This document shows, piece after piece, positions 817 through 6,125 of a DNA stretch of 24,597 nucleotides. The stretch comes from a virus. Under the pieces are notes generated by a model that ran no database searches, had not been told where the DNA came from, and was given only the letters and a program-made list of their open reading frames with translations. Where the stretch lies: positions 1 through 24,597 of IMG/VR virus record IMGVR_UViG_3300032288_000435. One strand, written 5' to 3'. Both the position numbers and the translations under genes were made by a program. Numbering within the stretch: position 1 is the stretch's first letter; the number at the start of each line of letters is the position of its first letter.

Positions 817-3009
817 ATGGCAACAGACTACACCGGCATCAACGCCGCAGCCGCAGTTGCTGTCGGTGGGTCGGCCAGAGACAAGAGCGACGCAGACATC
901 CTGGCACTCGCGCGCTCGCGCATGACTATGGCCATCTCGGCCACGTCCGAGAGCCGCGAAGATGAGCTGGATGACCTGCGTTTCATGGCAGGCTCGCCCG
1001 ACAACCAGTGGCAGTGGCCCGCCGACGTGCTGGCCACCCGTGGTGCGGTGCAGGGTCAGACGATCAACGCCCGCCCCTGCCTGACGATCAACAAGCTGCC
1101 GCAGCACGTTCGCCAAGTGACAAACGACCAGCGCCAGAACCGCCCCTCGGCCAAGGTGATCCCAGCTGACGACAACGCGGACGTTCAGGTGGCAGAGGTG
1201 TTTGACGGCATGATCCGTCACATCGAGTACATCAGCGACGCCGACGTGGCCTACGACACCGCCTGCGAAAACCAGGTGACGTACGGCGAAGGCTATATCC
1301 GCATCCTGACCGAGTACTGCGACGACAACACCTTTAACCAAGACCTGAAGATCGGACGCATCCGCAACAGCTTCAGCGTCTACATGGACCCGTTGATCCA
1401 AGACCCGTGCGGGGCCGACGCGCAGTGGTGCTTTGTGACGGAAGACATCACGCACCGCGAGTACGAAGAACGTTTCCCCAACGCCACGCCCATCTCGACG
1501 ATGGAGACGTTGGGTGTGGGCGATCAAGGCATTAGCCAGTGGATCAACGAGAACACGGTCCGCATCGCCGACTACTATTACTACGAAAACACCAAGCGCA
1601 CGCTGCACCTGTACCCGGGCAACATGACCGCGTTTGCTGGCACGCAGGAAGATAAAGACCTGAAAGCCCTGTACGGCACGCCGCTCAGGAAGCGCGAGGT
1701 CGACGTCAAGCAGGTCAAGTGGTGCAAGATCAACGGCTACGACATCCTCGAGAGCACCGACTGGGCGGGCAAGTTCATCCCCGTCGTGCGTGTGATCGGC
1801 AATGAGTTCGAGGTCGATGGTCGCATCTTTATTAGCGGTTTGGTACGAAATGCCAAAGACGCGCAACGAATGTACAACTATTGGGTTAGCCAAGAGGCAG
1901 AAATGCTGGCTTTGGCGCCCAAAGCGCCCTTTATTGGCTACGGCGGCCAGTTTGAGGGCTACGAAATGCAGTGGAAAACCGCCAATACGACCAACTGGCC
2001 GTATTTGGAGGTCAATCCAGACGTTACAGACGGCGCTGGCAACGTTTTGCCGCTGCCCCAGCGTGCACCCCCGCCCTTGCCTCAAACGGGGCTCATACAG
2101 GCCAAAATGGGCGCTGCTGACGACATCAAGGCCTCAACGGGCCAGTACGACTCAAGCCTCGGGGCCACAAGCAACGAGCGCTCGGGCCGCGCGATCATGG
2201 CACGCGAGCGTCAGGCCGACACCGGCACGTACCACTTCGTGGACAACCTAGCCCGTGCGGTTCGTCACATTGGGCGCCAGCTGGTCGACCTGATCCCCAA
2301 GATTTACGATACCCAGCGCATTGCCCGCATCATTGGTGTGGACGGCGAGGCCAGCATGGCCAAGATCGACCCGACCCAGCCGATGCCCGTGCGTGAGATT
2401 CGCGACGAGCGCGGCATCGTCATTGAGAAGGTCTACAACCCCGGCGTGGGCAAGTACGACGTGATCGTGACGACCGGCCCGAGCTACCTGACCAAGCGTC
2501 AGGAAGCCATGGACGCGATGAGCCAGATTCTGCAAGGCAACCCGGCTTTGTGGAGCGCAGCCGGCGACCTGTTCGTCAAGAACATGGATTGGCCAGGCGC
2601 TGACGAGCTGGCAGCCCGTCTGAAGAAGATGATTGACCCCAAACTGCTGGAAGATCAAGACGATCCAGCACTGCAAGCGGCCAACCAGCAGATTCAAGCC
2701 ATGGCCGCCGAGATGGAGCAGATGTACAACATGCTCCAGAACGTCCAGAGCTCGATGGAGTCGCGTGACCTGATGATTAAGAGCTTCGAGGCTCAGGTCA
2801 AGGCGTACGACGCCGAAACCAAGCGTATCAGCGCGGTGCAGGCCAGCATGTCGCCAGAGCAGATTCAAGACATCGTCATGGGCACAATCCACGCCGCCAT
2901 CGACACGGGCGACTTGGTGCCAGGCGAAGGGGCGCTGCGCGCACCGATGATGCCTGAGCCCATGGAGGCGCCCGGCGCACCAGAACAACCTGAAGGAATG
3001 ATGCAATGA
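817..3009 (+). CDS. Portal protein, P22-like
   Basis: The 730-aa product is close in length to the phage P22 portal (725 aa). It carries features of the P22-type portal family: an N-terminal DELDDLRFMAG segment (residues about 47-57), a TINKLPQHVRQVTNDQRQNR stretch near residue 90, and a central ISGLVRNAKDAQRMYNYWVS block near residue 339 followed by APKAPFIG. A long, glutamine- and methionine-rich helical/coiled C-terminus (about 611-675) resembles the barrel region of such portals. Portals form the dodecameric ring at one capsid vertex through which DNA is packaged and ejected. It follows the tiny basic genes and ends in an ATGA overlap with the Dps-like gene. Codon use changes for roughly 250 bases around 1815-2060, noted separately. 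Confidence 0.92.
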   Translation: MATDYTGINAAAAVAVGGSARDKSDADILALARSRMTMAISATSESREDELDDLRFMAGSPDNQWQWPADVLATRGAVQGQTINARPCLTINKLPQHVRQVTNDQRQNRPSAKVIPADDNADVQVAEVFDGMIRHIEYISDADVAYDTACENQVTYGEGYIRILTEYCDDNTFNQDLKIGRIRNSFSVYMDPLIQDPCGADAQWCFVTEDITHREYEERFPNATPISTMETLGVGDQGISQWINENTVRIADYYYYENTKRTLHLYPGNMTAFAGTQEDKDLKALYGTPLRKREVDVKQVKWCKINGYDILESTDWAGKFIPVVRVIGNEFEVDGRIFISGLVRNAKDAQRMYNYWVSQEAEMLALAPKAPFIGYGGQFEGYEMQWKTANTTNWPYLEVNPDVTDGAGNVLPLPQRAPPPLPQTGLIQAKMGAADDIKASTGQYDSSLGATSNERSGRAIMARERQADTGTYHFVDNLARAVRHIGRQLVDLIPKIYDTQRIARIIGVDGEASMAKIDPTQPMPVREIRDERGIVIEKVYNPGVGKYDVIVTTGPSYLTKRQEAMDAMSQILQGNPALWSAAGDLFVKNMDWPGADELAARLKKMIDPKLLEDQDDPALQAANQQIQAMAAEMEQMYNMLQNVQSSMESRDLMIKSFEAQVKAYDAETKRISAVQASMSPEQIQDIVMGTIHAAIDTGDLVPGEGALRAPMMPEPMEAPGAPEQPEGMMQ

Positions 3010-3371
3010 GCAAGGCCGCCGATTTCATAGGCATACTGTTTCTAGCTCGCGATGTGGCCCACTCGGTCCACCTGAACACGCGCAGTTTTAGCAAGCATAC
3101 GGCACTCAACATTTTCTACGACCGCATCATCGATGTGGCTGACGATTTTGCTGAAACCTACCAAGGCACGCATGGACTTATTGGCCCAATTACGCTACAG
3201 TCTGCCAAGAAAACATCAAACATCATTGAGTTTTTGGAAGACTCCCTCGCGCAAGTTCAGGCGATGCGTTACGAAGTGTGCGACAAAGACGATACGTCGT
3301 TGCAACAGTTGATTGACAACATTGTTGAAGTCTATCGGCGCACGTTGTACAAACTCAAATTTTTGGCATAA
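3006..3371 (+). CDS. Dps/ferritin-like small protein (candidate ferroxidase)
   Basis: This 121-aa, mostly helical protein starts in an ATGA overlap with the portal stop. Residues H19, H31, D46 and E50 are spaced H-x11-H-x14-D-x3-E, identical to ferroxidase ligands H31/H43/D58/E62 of Listeria Dps and H51/H63/D78/E82 of E. coli Dps. The Phe three residues before the second His and the YD pair seven and eight residues after it also match Listeria Dps. The fifth Dps ligand (Asp, second His +4) is Asn35 here. Dps proteins oxidise and store iron and can bind DNA. At 121 aa it is shorter than Dps (about 150-170 aa). I recall viral relatives under DUF5856, without certainty. The ferritin-like fold is inference from spacing; activity is unproven. 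Confidence 0.6.
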   Translation: MSKAADFIGILFLARDVAHSVHLNTRSFSKHTALNIFYDRIIDVADDFAETYQGTHGLIGPITLQSAKKTSNIIEFLEDSLAQVQAMRYEVCDKDDTSLQQLIDNIVEVYRRTLYKLKFLA

Positions 3372-3380
3372 GGAGCCATC

Positions 3381-3647
3381 ATGGCACTCTACAAACAAGG
3401 TAGCGCAGACTCACAGATTAAAATTGGTGGCGGCAAGCTGTACGGCGTGTTCATCTCCAGCACCTCGAGCGGCACGTTTGCGTTGTATGACACGGCCACG
3501 GCCAGCACCAGCGATCCCAAGATTGTCAGCACCGTGACGGTCAGTGCTGGCACCCAGTACGTCAGCTTCCCCGCAGGCTTGTGGTTTAGCAACGGTCTGT
3601 ACATTGACGTTGCCAACACCATCGAATACACCGTCGCCTACGAATAA
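3381..3647 (+). CDS. Small beta-rich protein preceding the tailspike
   Basis: This 88-aa protein is rich in Ser, Thr, Gly, Val and Tyr with alternating hydrophobic residues, as in an all-beta fold. It starts MALYKQGSADSQIKIGGGKL and ends in NTIEYTVAYE. The start is supported by an AAGGAG ribosome site at 3370-3375. It lies 9 bp upstream of the tailspike gene. No family is recognised. It could be a small decoration or adaptor protein of the virion, or an accessory to the adhesins, based on position and composition only. Confidence 0.7.
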   Translation: MALYKQGSADSQIKIGGGKLYGVFISSTSSGTFALYDTATASTSDPKIVSTVTVSAGTQYVSFPAGLWFSNGLYIDVANTIEYTVAYE

Positions 3648-3656
3648 GGACACGCC

Positions 3657-6125
3657 ATGGCTGTCAACCTTTCCCCAGTGGGCGGCGTTGCAGCCCAGTT
3701 CTTTACAAACACCGGCGCCGTCCTGACTGGCGGCAAGCTGTACACCTACGCGGCTGGCACGACCACGCCTGCGGTCACATACACAACTGCAAATGCGGGT
3801 ACATTTTGGACCAACCCGATTGTGTTGGACGCCGCAGGGCGCGTGCCTAACAGCGGCGAAATTTGGCTGACTGACGGCGTCATTTACAAGTTCGTGCTAA
3901 AAGACAGCAACGAAGTATTGATTGCCACTTACGATAACATCACCGGCATCAATTCCAACGCTGTTGCGTACACGAACCAACAAGAAATTGTTACGGCCAC
4001 AGCGGGCCAAACAGTGTTTGATCTGTCAATTAGCTACGCGCCCGGCACCAACAGTTTGTCGGTGTTTGTGGACGGCGTAAACCAGTACGGCCCAGGCGCT
4101 CAATACGCGTACACTGAGACCGACACCAACACGGTGACGTTCAATAACGGGCTGCATGTTGGCGCTGAAGTTAAATTCACCACAACTCAACAACAAGGCG
4201 CCGGCGCCGTAGATTCGTCTCAAGTAACATATGACCCTCCGTTTACTGATTCAGTAGCAACTAACGTTGAAGCCAAATTGGCACAAACTGTCAGCGTCAA
4301 AGATTTTGGAGCTGTTGGTGACGGTGTGGCGGATGATTTTTTGGCTATCAACCGCGCAACCAAATATGTAGCGGATCAAGGCGGCGGCACTGTTTTTTAT
4401 CCGCCTGGCACATACCGCATCACTCGCGCCATTCGGTTAGATAACTTCGACGTTGACACAAACACATACAACGGTCAAACGCGTGAAAACATTGTTCACG
4501 CCGGCGCAGGCAGAGATTCAACAATTATTTTGGCCGATGGTTTTTACGCGAGCATTTTTACTTCTTTTCCAGAGCCATTCATTGCGTCAGGTAGCGTGTC
4601 TCCTAGCCCAACGCCTGGTAACGTAATGGCCAGCAATGTTGTCATCAAAGACATGACTTTGGATTGCAACTACGACAATGTAGTTGACGGCGGAGCTGCG
4701 TATGGCCCGTATTACGCCACCTCGCCTCAAGCAACAGCGGGGTGGCCCAATGGCTATGTTGGGATTTCATATTGGGCGGCTGATAACTATCAGTACCCGA
4801 TCATGTTTTACTATTCAGAAGGCTTGCAGGTTACAAATTGCCGGATTAAAAACTCTTGGTACAACGGCGTTGAGGTTTATGCAAGCGCTCGCGTCCAAAT
4901 CAACGACAACTTTGTTGAAAATTGCGGCGACAAAGCAAACTTTTTGGGTTATTACGCGGGTTTGCAATTTGACCAGCGGTCTAACACAATCAGCGCAACA
5001 GACAACATCATTCAAAACTGCGGTAATGGAGTGATGTCTGTTAGCGGCGCTGGCGCTACATCTGCCGTTCTTGACGTTGTTGTTGCTGACAACGTGTTCT
5101 ATAACATTGGCCCTGGCAACGGTGTTTACGCAACTGATTTTGTCAGTAATTGGACTGTATCAAACAATATTTTTGACACTCTTGAAAATCGCGGCATTGT
5201 GTTTGATGCAAATCAACTGGGTTGGCCTGCGACAAAACTGCCAAAAAATTGCTCTGTTACCAACAACATAATCAATGAGTTTATGTTGAGTAACAATAGC
5301 GGCGCGGCGATTTATATGCTTGGCCATGACCATTTGATTGCTAATAACAACATTATGCAAACAAACAATGGCGTTACGGCTAACGTCATGGGCATTCAAG
5401 TTTCTGATTCAAGCGTTACTGTTGGCACAAATGAGTCAAAAGGCGTAAGCATTGTTGGAAACATCATTCAAGGTAAATTCCCAAGTAACACTGCGTCTAT
5501 CGGTTTGATCTATGTTGACGCAGACAACACGCTTGTTTCTGGCAACACTTTAAAATCTACCGCATCCGCCGCACAAACTGCTATTACTTTGTTTGCTGAC
5601 AACACCGTCGTAACAGGTAACAACGTTGTTGGAACCTATGCTCAGACAAATAGAGCAATCTATGCGTATGCAGGATCGTCCAATATGTTTATTGCCGACA
5701 ATCGGTTTGGCCCGGTTACGGCGTTCCATACAACTGTTGCAAGTGGATCAATTAGCGGCGCAAACAATGTAGATTTTTCAGGCTTATCGACGGTTGTTGA
5801 TATCGACAATCGAGGAAATTACGTTTCGGCAAGCGACGCGTTTAGCCCTGACATACCTGGCGTGTACAGTTTTGAAGCTGTTTTACGGGTTACAGCTGCG
5901 TCTGCTACCGCTGTTCAGGGAACAATCGAGTCTAATGGCGTAACAGTCATAGCCTCTGGTGTTCAAACGGCTAGTGCAGGCGCCACGGTAACGGTTACTT
6001 TGTCAGGCTTTGCGACGTTGGGCGCTTCTGATCTAGTCAGGTTGAAAGCTAACGTAACGACCGGAAGTTATGTAATCGAGTCTTTCACCAGCCTTAGCGC
6101 TAAATTTGTGCGACAAACCACTTAA
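3657..6125 (+). CDS. Tailspike with virion-anchor and beta-helix (pectate-lyase-like) domains
   Basis: The product is 822 aa. Residues 1-100 (MAVNLSPVGG, then GKLYTYAAGTTTP, WTNPIVLDAAGR, IYKFVLKDS) match the pattern of an N-terminal head- or tail-binding domain of podovirus spikes. Residues about 109-175 (QTVFDLSISYAPGTNSLSVF and VDGVNQYG) form a small beta module common in tail fibres. From about 213 the text SVKDFGAVGDGVADDFLAIN begins a right-handed beta-helix of the pectate-lyase-3 superfamily, with many NNxI/VxxN rungs to about 720. The C-terminal 85 residues look like a beta-sandwich, perhaps for trimerisation or sugar binding. The role is receptor binding, possibly with polysaccharide-degrading activity; catalytic residues cannot be named. 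Codon use is AT-richer than in the flanking capsid genes, which suggests exchange. Confidence 0.88.
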   Translation: MAVNLSPVGGVAAQFFTNTGAVLTGGKLYTYAAGTTTPAVTYTTANAGTFWTNPIVLDAAGRVPNSGEIWLTDGVIYKFVLKDSNEVLIATYDNITGINSNAVAYTNQQEIVTATAGQTVFDLSISYAPGTNSLSVFVDGVNQYGPGAQYAYTETDTNTVTFNNGLHVGAEVKFTTTQQQGAGAVDSSQVTYDPPFTDSVATNVEAKLAQTVSVKDFGAVGDGVADDFLAINRATKYVADQGGGTVFYPPGTYRITRAIRLDNFDVDTNTYNGQTRENIVHAGAGRDSTIILADGFYASIFTSFPEPFIASGSVSPSPTPGNVMASNVVIKDMTLDCNYDNVVDGGAAYGPYYATSPQATAGWPNGYVGISYWAADNYQYPIMFYYSEGLQVTNCRIKNSWYNGVEVYASARVQINDNFVENCGDKANFLGYYAGLQFDQRSNTISATDNIIQNCGNGVMSVSGAGATSAVLDVVVADNVFYNIGPGNGVYATDFVSNWTVSNNIFDTLENRGIVFDANQLGWPATKLPKNCSVTNNIINEFMLSNNSGAAIYMLGHDHLIANNNIMQTNNGVTANVMGIQVSDSSVTVGTNESKGVSIVGNIIQGKFPSNTASIGLIYVDADNTLVSGNTLKSTASAAQTAITLFADNTVVTGNNVVGTYAQTNRAIYAYAGSSNMFIADNRFGPVTAFHTTVASGSISGANNVDFSGLSTVVDIDNRGNYVSASDAFSPDIPGVYSFEAVLRVTAASATAVQGTIESNGVTVIASGVQTASAGATVTVTLSGFATLGASDLVRLKANVTTGSYVIESFTSLSAKFVRQTT

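Follow-up and report, generated by a model that had tools for sequence, protein, structure and literature searches.

The bacterial protein Dps serves in iron storage and in the protection of DNA; a short BC helix connects its helices B and C and is packed where the two subunits of a dimer meet. True Dps genes are also known in phages, namely in Lactobacillus phages and in the gut 'Gratiaviridae' (PMC8008677, PMC6669764). Two other phage proteins are the closest described relatives of the gene reported here. The first is gp217 of Sajous1 (Kuttervirus), identical to orf108 of CBA120, which was detected with 10 spectra in CsCl-purified virions together with its neighbours gp214-216, and for which Phyre2 returned a ferritin model with a confidence of 96.7. 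The authors proposed a 'ferrojan-horse' role while noting possible contamination at low counts, and Sajous1 infection of mutants showed no dependence on TonB or FeoB (PMC10892097); in the passages of that article consulted here, no link of gp217 to the Pfam family DUF5856, to rI.-1 or to the Dps ligand set was found. The second is T4 rI.-1, the over-expression of which slightly delayed the collapse of lysis inhibition (Golec 2010, cited from the review PMC6832632), and whose role has been termed 'undefined' (PMC6832632). In the open-licence literature we found no paper naming DUF5856 and none tying rI.-1 to Dps. That is, what is already known is that a Kuttervirus member has been modelled as a 'ferritin' and seen in virions, and that the PHROG and RefSeq labels of the family echo Dps.

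The window, i.e. the whole stretch of 24,597 nt analysed here (IMG/VR virus record IMGVR_UViG_3300032288_000435), contains a further member of this family. A first-pass annotation of the sequence had described it as a Dps-like protein with a ferroxidase-spaced site, coupled to the portal gene.

Gene arrangement and family membership

The Dps-like gene (3006..3371, + strand) encodes a protein of 121 aa and follows a portal protein gene (817..3009, + strand; PHROG 156 portal, E = 4.8e-126), the product of which is, on sequence grounds, a P22-type portal protein. As read from the sequence, the ATG of the Dps-like gene (3006-3008) overlaps the portal stop codon TGA (3007-3009) in an ATGA arrangement, which bears out the earlier description of an ORF starting within the portal stop codon. 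Since the window also encodes a scaffold, a major head protein, a head-tail adaptor, head closure and DNA ejection proteins, and an endolysin (18 kb from the Dps-like gene), it belongs to a P22-like podovirus, whose sole near relative among phage records is DSL-LC05. Directly after the Dps-like gene lies an ORF of 88 aa (3381-3647), which has a match in the loci of 37 of 80 close relatives and for which a PHROG search gave no match.

Pfam returned one match only for the Dps-like protein, DUF5856 (PF19174; E = 3.6e-19, 70 bits against a gathering cut-off of 34.6), and PHROG returned one clear match, to PHROG 858 (E = 6.5e-25). All 45 members of the family alignment likewise match DUF5856, a family for which NCBIfam holds no model. 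T4 rI.-1, which is 27% identical to the window protein and has an N-terminal extension, can be aligned with it end to end, with H19, H22, H31, D46, E50, G54 and Y115 as common invariant residues, and the Kuttervirus protein (Sajous1 gp217/CBA120 orf108) is 32% identical. By these sequence comparisons, the window protein is a member of the widespread phage family of T4 rI.-1 (MobD.6). Searches of phage-record proteins retrieved 643 records with the window protein as query and 1,438 with the CBA120 member. The first-pass view that a Dps fold is unexpected in a phage was therefore overstated: the family occurs in more than 1,400 phage records, and one of its members had already been modelled as a ferritin and detected in virions (PMC10892097).

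When 84,980 species genomes of bacteria and archaea were scanned, only five close relatives were recovered, each with an adjoining portal gene, although more remote ones would escape such a scan; one family alignment (A3) scanned against genomes found no relative. Recent gain from a bacterial Dps is supported neither by this small number nor by the position of the window protein, which is nearer to its phage homologues than to any Dps.

The name given to the family in PHROG and RefSeq is 'starvation-inducible transcriptional regulator'. Nothing was found in support of the regulator label, which probably echoes 'DNA protection during starvation', i.e. the name of Dps, and the evidence on the family speaks for an iron protein rather than a regulator. 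In an RB43-like record (locus 5001-5373) the matched stretch of the rI.-1 homologue is interrupted by in-frame stops, and the public gene model of RB43 RI.-1 covers just 77 aa, so that this copy of the gene is either broken or mis-sequenced.

Predicted fold and kinship with Dps

The AlphaFold2 (AF2) model of the window protein, built with 45 related phage sequences, is a four-helix bundle (pLDDT 95.2, pTM 0.89) with predicted helices at residues 3-24, 28-56, 73-91 and 97-119. When the model was compared with the PDB by Foldseek, the top 50 matches were almost all Dps, including P. aeruginosa Dps, MrgA, E. coli Dps and A. tumefaciens Dps, with probabilities near 1.00 and TM-scores of up to 0.78. 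The corresponding E-values were modest (best 0.018), and weight is therefore placed on the consistency of the matches and on the sequence tests. A second model, that of an RB49-type rI.-1 relative (pLDDT 89.9), showed the same fold and again matched mostly Dps.

At the profile level, a search with the family profile reached HP-NAP at E = 1.2e-5, plus a series of further Dps chains. Designed helical PDB proteins that appeared in the same search were set aside as helix-composition matches, lying mainly in the C-terminal half. Alignment by hhalign with 16 Dps proteins from bacterial genomes extended over 111 columns (probability 91, E = 1.1e-6), with the ligand residues paired. In the reverse direction, 4 of the 16 bacterial Dps matched DUF5856 (best E 0.024) and 6 of the 16 matched PHROG 858 (best 3.8e-4), which came second after the true phage-Dps family, PHROG 3636. 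The latter is matched by all 16 bacterial Dps (best 4.9e-40), whereas the window protein reaches it only at E = 0.74. Neither the window protein nor the family members matched Pfam Ferritin (PF00210) by hmmscan, and the kinship with Dps is visible solely by family-profile, profile-profile and structure comparison. Homology to Dps and a Dps-like fold are nevertheless considered almost certain, and the helical, Dps-like protein of the first-pass annotation is upheld by the monomer model with its fold search, by the profile searches against Dps and DUF5856, and by hhalign. Foldseek against a viral library also retrieved similar predicted folds from Pithovirus LCPAC404, Fadolivirus and crAss-like phages ('Putative DpsA'), so that large DNA viruses may commonly encode small proteins of the Dps type.

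Like Dps and HP-NAP (PF00210), the window protein combines a four-helix bundle, here a predicted one, with two His and an Asp-x3-Glu in register, but it is some 25-45 residues shorter. Three residues are missing from the loop that precedes the second His, and the fifth ligand of Dps, an Asp or Glu four residues after the second His, is replaced by N35. Furthermore, the AF2 model shows no helix at residues 57-72, i.e. no BC helix, and Lys-rich tails (not universal among Dps at either the N- or the C-terminus) are absent, with two residues preceding helix 1 and two following helix 4. Given these absences and a net charge of -3, DNA binding in the manner of E. coli Dps would not be expected, and the dimer geometry may differ as well.

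Conservation and assignment of the ferroxidase-type residues

The first-pass annotation had read H19-x11-H31-x14-D46-x3-E50 as the exact spacing of the Dps ferroxidase ligands. The motif is indeed present in the protein; among 200,000 shuffled versions of the window protein it occurs in 0.03%, and it was found in no other reading frame of at least 50 residues in the window. That it is not due to chance is indicated by its conservation, which was counted over 36 family sequences of less than 80% identity, T4 included. His31 (codon 3096..3098; all codons given here are on the + strand), Asp46 (3141..3143) and Glu50 (3153..3155), which align with the second ferroxidase His, the Asp and the Glu of Dps, are invariant (36/36, 100%), and His19 (3060..3062) is found in 33/36 (92%). 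His22 (3069..3071), one helical turn after His19, is equally invariant (36/36) and aligns with the first ferroxidase His of Dps, the His of the 'HW' motif. In a 15-member alignment extending from the window protein to T4, the invariant columns are H19, H22, H31, D46, E50, G54, Y115 and L117. The invariance of H22, H31, D46 and E50 in such diverse members, T4 among them, suits a working metal site. The YD pair pointed out in the first-pass annotation is present as Y38-D39, and Y38 is conserved in 33 of the 36 sequences, but D39 is variable across the family. Asn35 (3108..3110) does stand where Dps has its fifth ligand (Asp/Glu), as had been noticed, and this ligand is lost family-wide, the residue being mostly Gly, or else Asn.

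The part of the earlier assignment that did not hold is the identity of the first ligand. Both profile alignments pair H22 with the 'HW' His and place a 3-residue gap in the loop, so that H19 is rejected as the first Dps ligand and the Dps-like distance between H19 and H31 becomes a coincidence, caused by the 3-residue deletion relative to Dps. H19 corresponds to an extra His that HP-NAP (the first His of 'HNFHW') and many Dps carry three residues before the ligand. Relatives without H19 (L115, L123 and L228) keep H22 and, like Dps, have a Trp after it; where the loop carries a 3-residue insertion (RB49 type, L229), the distance from H22 to H31 is exactly 12, again as in Dps. Comparison of the two models indicates that the insertion extends the A-B loop from 3 to 6 residues, H22 remaining in the last turn of helix A. 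The conclusion of a conserved, ferroxidase-type ligand set survives this shift by one helical turn, and H19 may help at the site. Of the two outcomes that the first-pass annotation had named as contradicting it, a different fold or a lack of conservation of these residues in homologues, both were checked and neither was obtained. Metal binding at H22/H31/D46/E50 is judged likely, and iron oxidation as the biochemical function is given about an even chance.

Gene neighbourhoods and possible roles

The coupling to the portal gene proposed in the first-pass annotation holds for this lineage. The ATGA overlap is kept in 79 of 80 close relatives from IMG/VR, and the portal gene, visible in 78 of them, is the immediate upstream neighbour in 75. 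In Rhizorhabdus histidinilytica UM2, a prophage-like region (NZ_FUYM01000001, 2821-9771) has the gene order portal/Dps-like/scaffold/major head protein with the same ATGA overlap, and an integrase gene about 26 kb away; this isolate is a culturable source of the arrangement. In other phages, however, the gene is found in lysis or non-virion contexts, and a portal-tied role in all phages can be rejected. That is, in T-even and related phages it adjoins rI, a neighbourhood that is absent from the window (portal upstream, 88-aa ORF downstream) and that is not a defining trait of the family outside T-even phages. In Caulobacter phage GB2A it overlaps an endolysin gene, in cta1H496 it lies beside endonuclease and GroES genes, in Kuttervirus it is flanked by genes for a large virion protein and a primase, and in many related phages it is far from the head genes. 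A GroES-like co-chaperonin gene was observed near the Dps-like gene in two otherwise differing phages (L083:7592-10394 and L084:4989-6098). As no single partner fits all of these neighbourhoods, a self-contained chemistry would explain them better.

The lysis contexts could suggest that the protein regulates when lysis occurs, a role proposed for T4 rI.-1, given the location of the latter in the rI lysis-inhibition operon, the delay caused by its over-expression, and the endolysin overlap in GB2A. The T4 effect is slight, though, and the role 'undefined' (PMC6832632), RaK2 has a family gene without RI and T holin (PMC3622015), and the window gene adjoins the portal gene and is distant from the endolysin gene; we regard this explanation as very improbable. 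The location within a head/tail block, coupled to the portal gene, could instead indicate a virion component, i.e. a Dps-like particle or subunit at the portal/tail vertex or inside the head, possibly metal-bearing in the 'ferrojan horse' sense, and the spectra of Sajous1 gp217 are in line with this. Yet those low counts may reflect contamination, the TonB and FeoB mutants were infected as usual (PMC10892097), and the gene is away from head genes in T4, GB2A and relatives of the cta1H496 type; we consider such a component unlikely. A third explanation, which we consider improbable, takes the loss of the fifth ligand, of the BC helix and of the tails, together with the portal coupling, to mean that the fold was kept for its shape, with structural Zn or Fe and no redox role, e.g. 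as a portal assembly factor or a protein-binding scaffold. Against it, four ligands of catalytic type are invariant across differing neighbourhoods, which fits a shared chemistry better than a portal-specific job, and relatives without a nearby portal gene would need another partner.

The reading we prefer, and consider somewhat probable when set against these three rivals, is that of a minimal, tail-less Dps-type mini-ferritin that handles iron; this weighting concerns iron handling as such and not each of the steps that follow. The four-helix monomers would probably pair as those of Dps do, in which case the metal site would lie at the two-fold interface, between H22 and H31 of one subunit, with H19 near by, and D46 and E50 of the next. 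Such a site would most likely bind Fe(II) and would probably oxidise it, so that reactive iron would be withdrawn in the late phase of infection; the harm done by Fenton chemistry to phage DNA and to parts of the virion would thereby be limited while heads are built and filled. Translation coupled to that of the portal protein would keep expression with the late genes and in step with head assembly. A role in protection from iron-driven damage during infection is put forward tentatively. The presence of the protein in the virion of the window phage is rather doubtful, and it seems highly unlikely that it is a mini-ferritin of the virion, produced in concert with the 12-fold portal and delivered with its metal to the next host. 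Were this the case, the window protein, Kuttervirus gp217 and T4 rI.-1 together would make iron handling a general and overlooked function among tailed phages, with more than 1,400 sequenced examples.

Because the window protein and T4 rI.-1 belong to one Dps-like family, the family as a whole probably binds iron. T4 rI.-1 is a protein of undefined role whose gene adjoins that of a classic lysis regulator, and Pfam still lists the family under 'unknown function'; a minimal Dps with an invariant set of metal-site residues offers a concrete and cheap test for a gene that more than 1,400 phage records contain. Iron handling by the family would account for the single published 'ferritin' from virions of Vi01-like phages, and would connect phage development with iron and oxidative stress.
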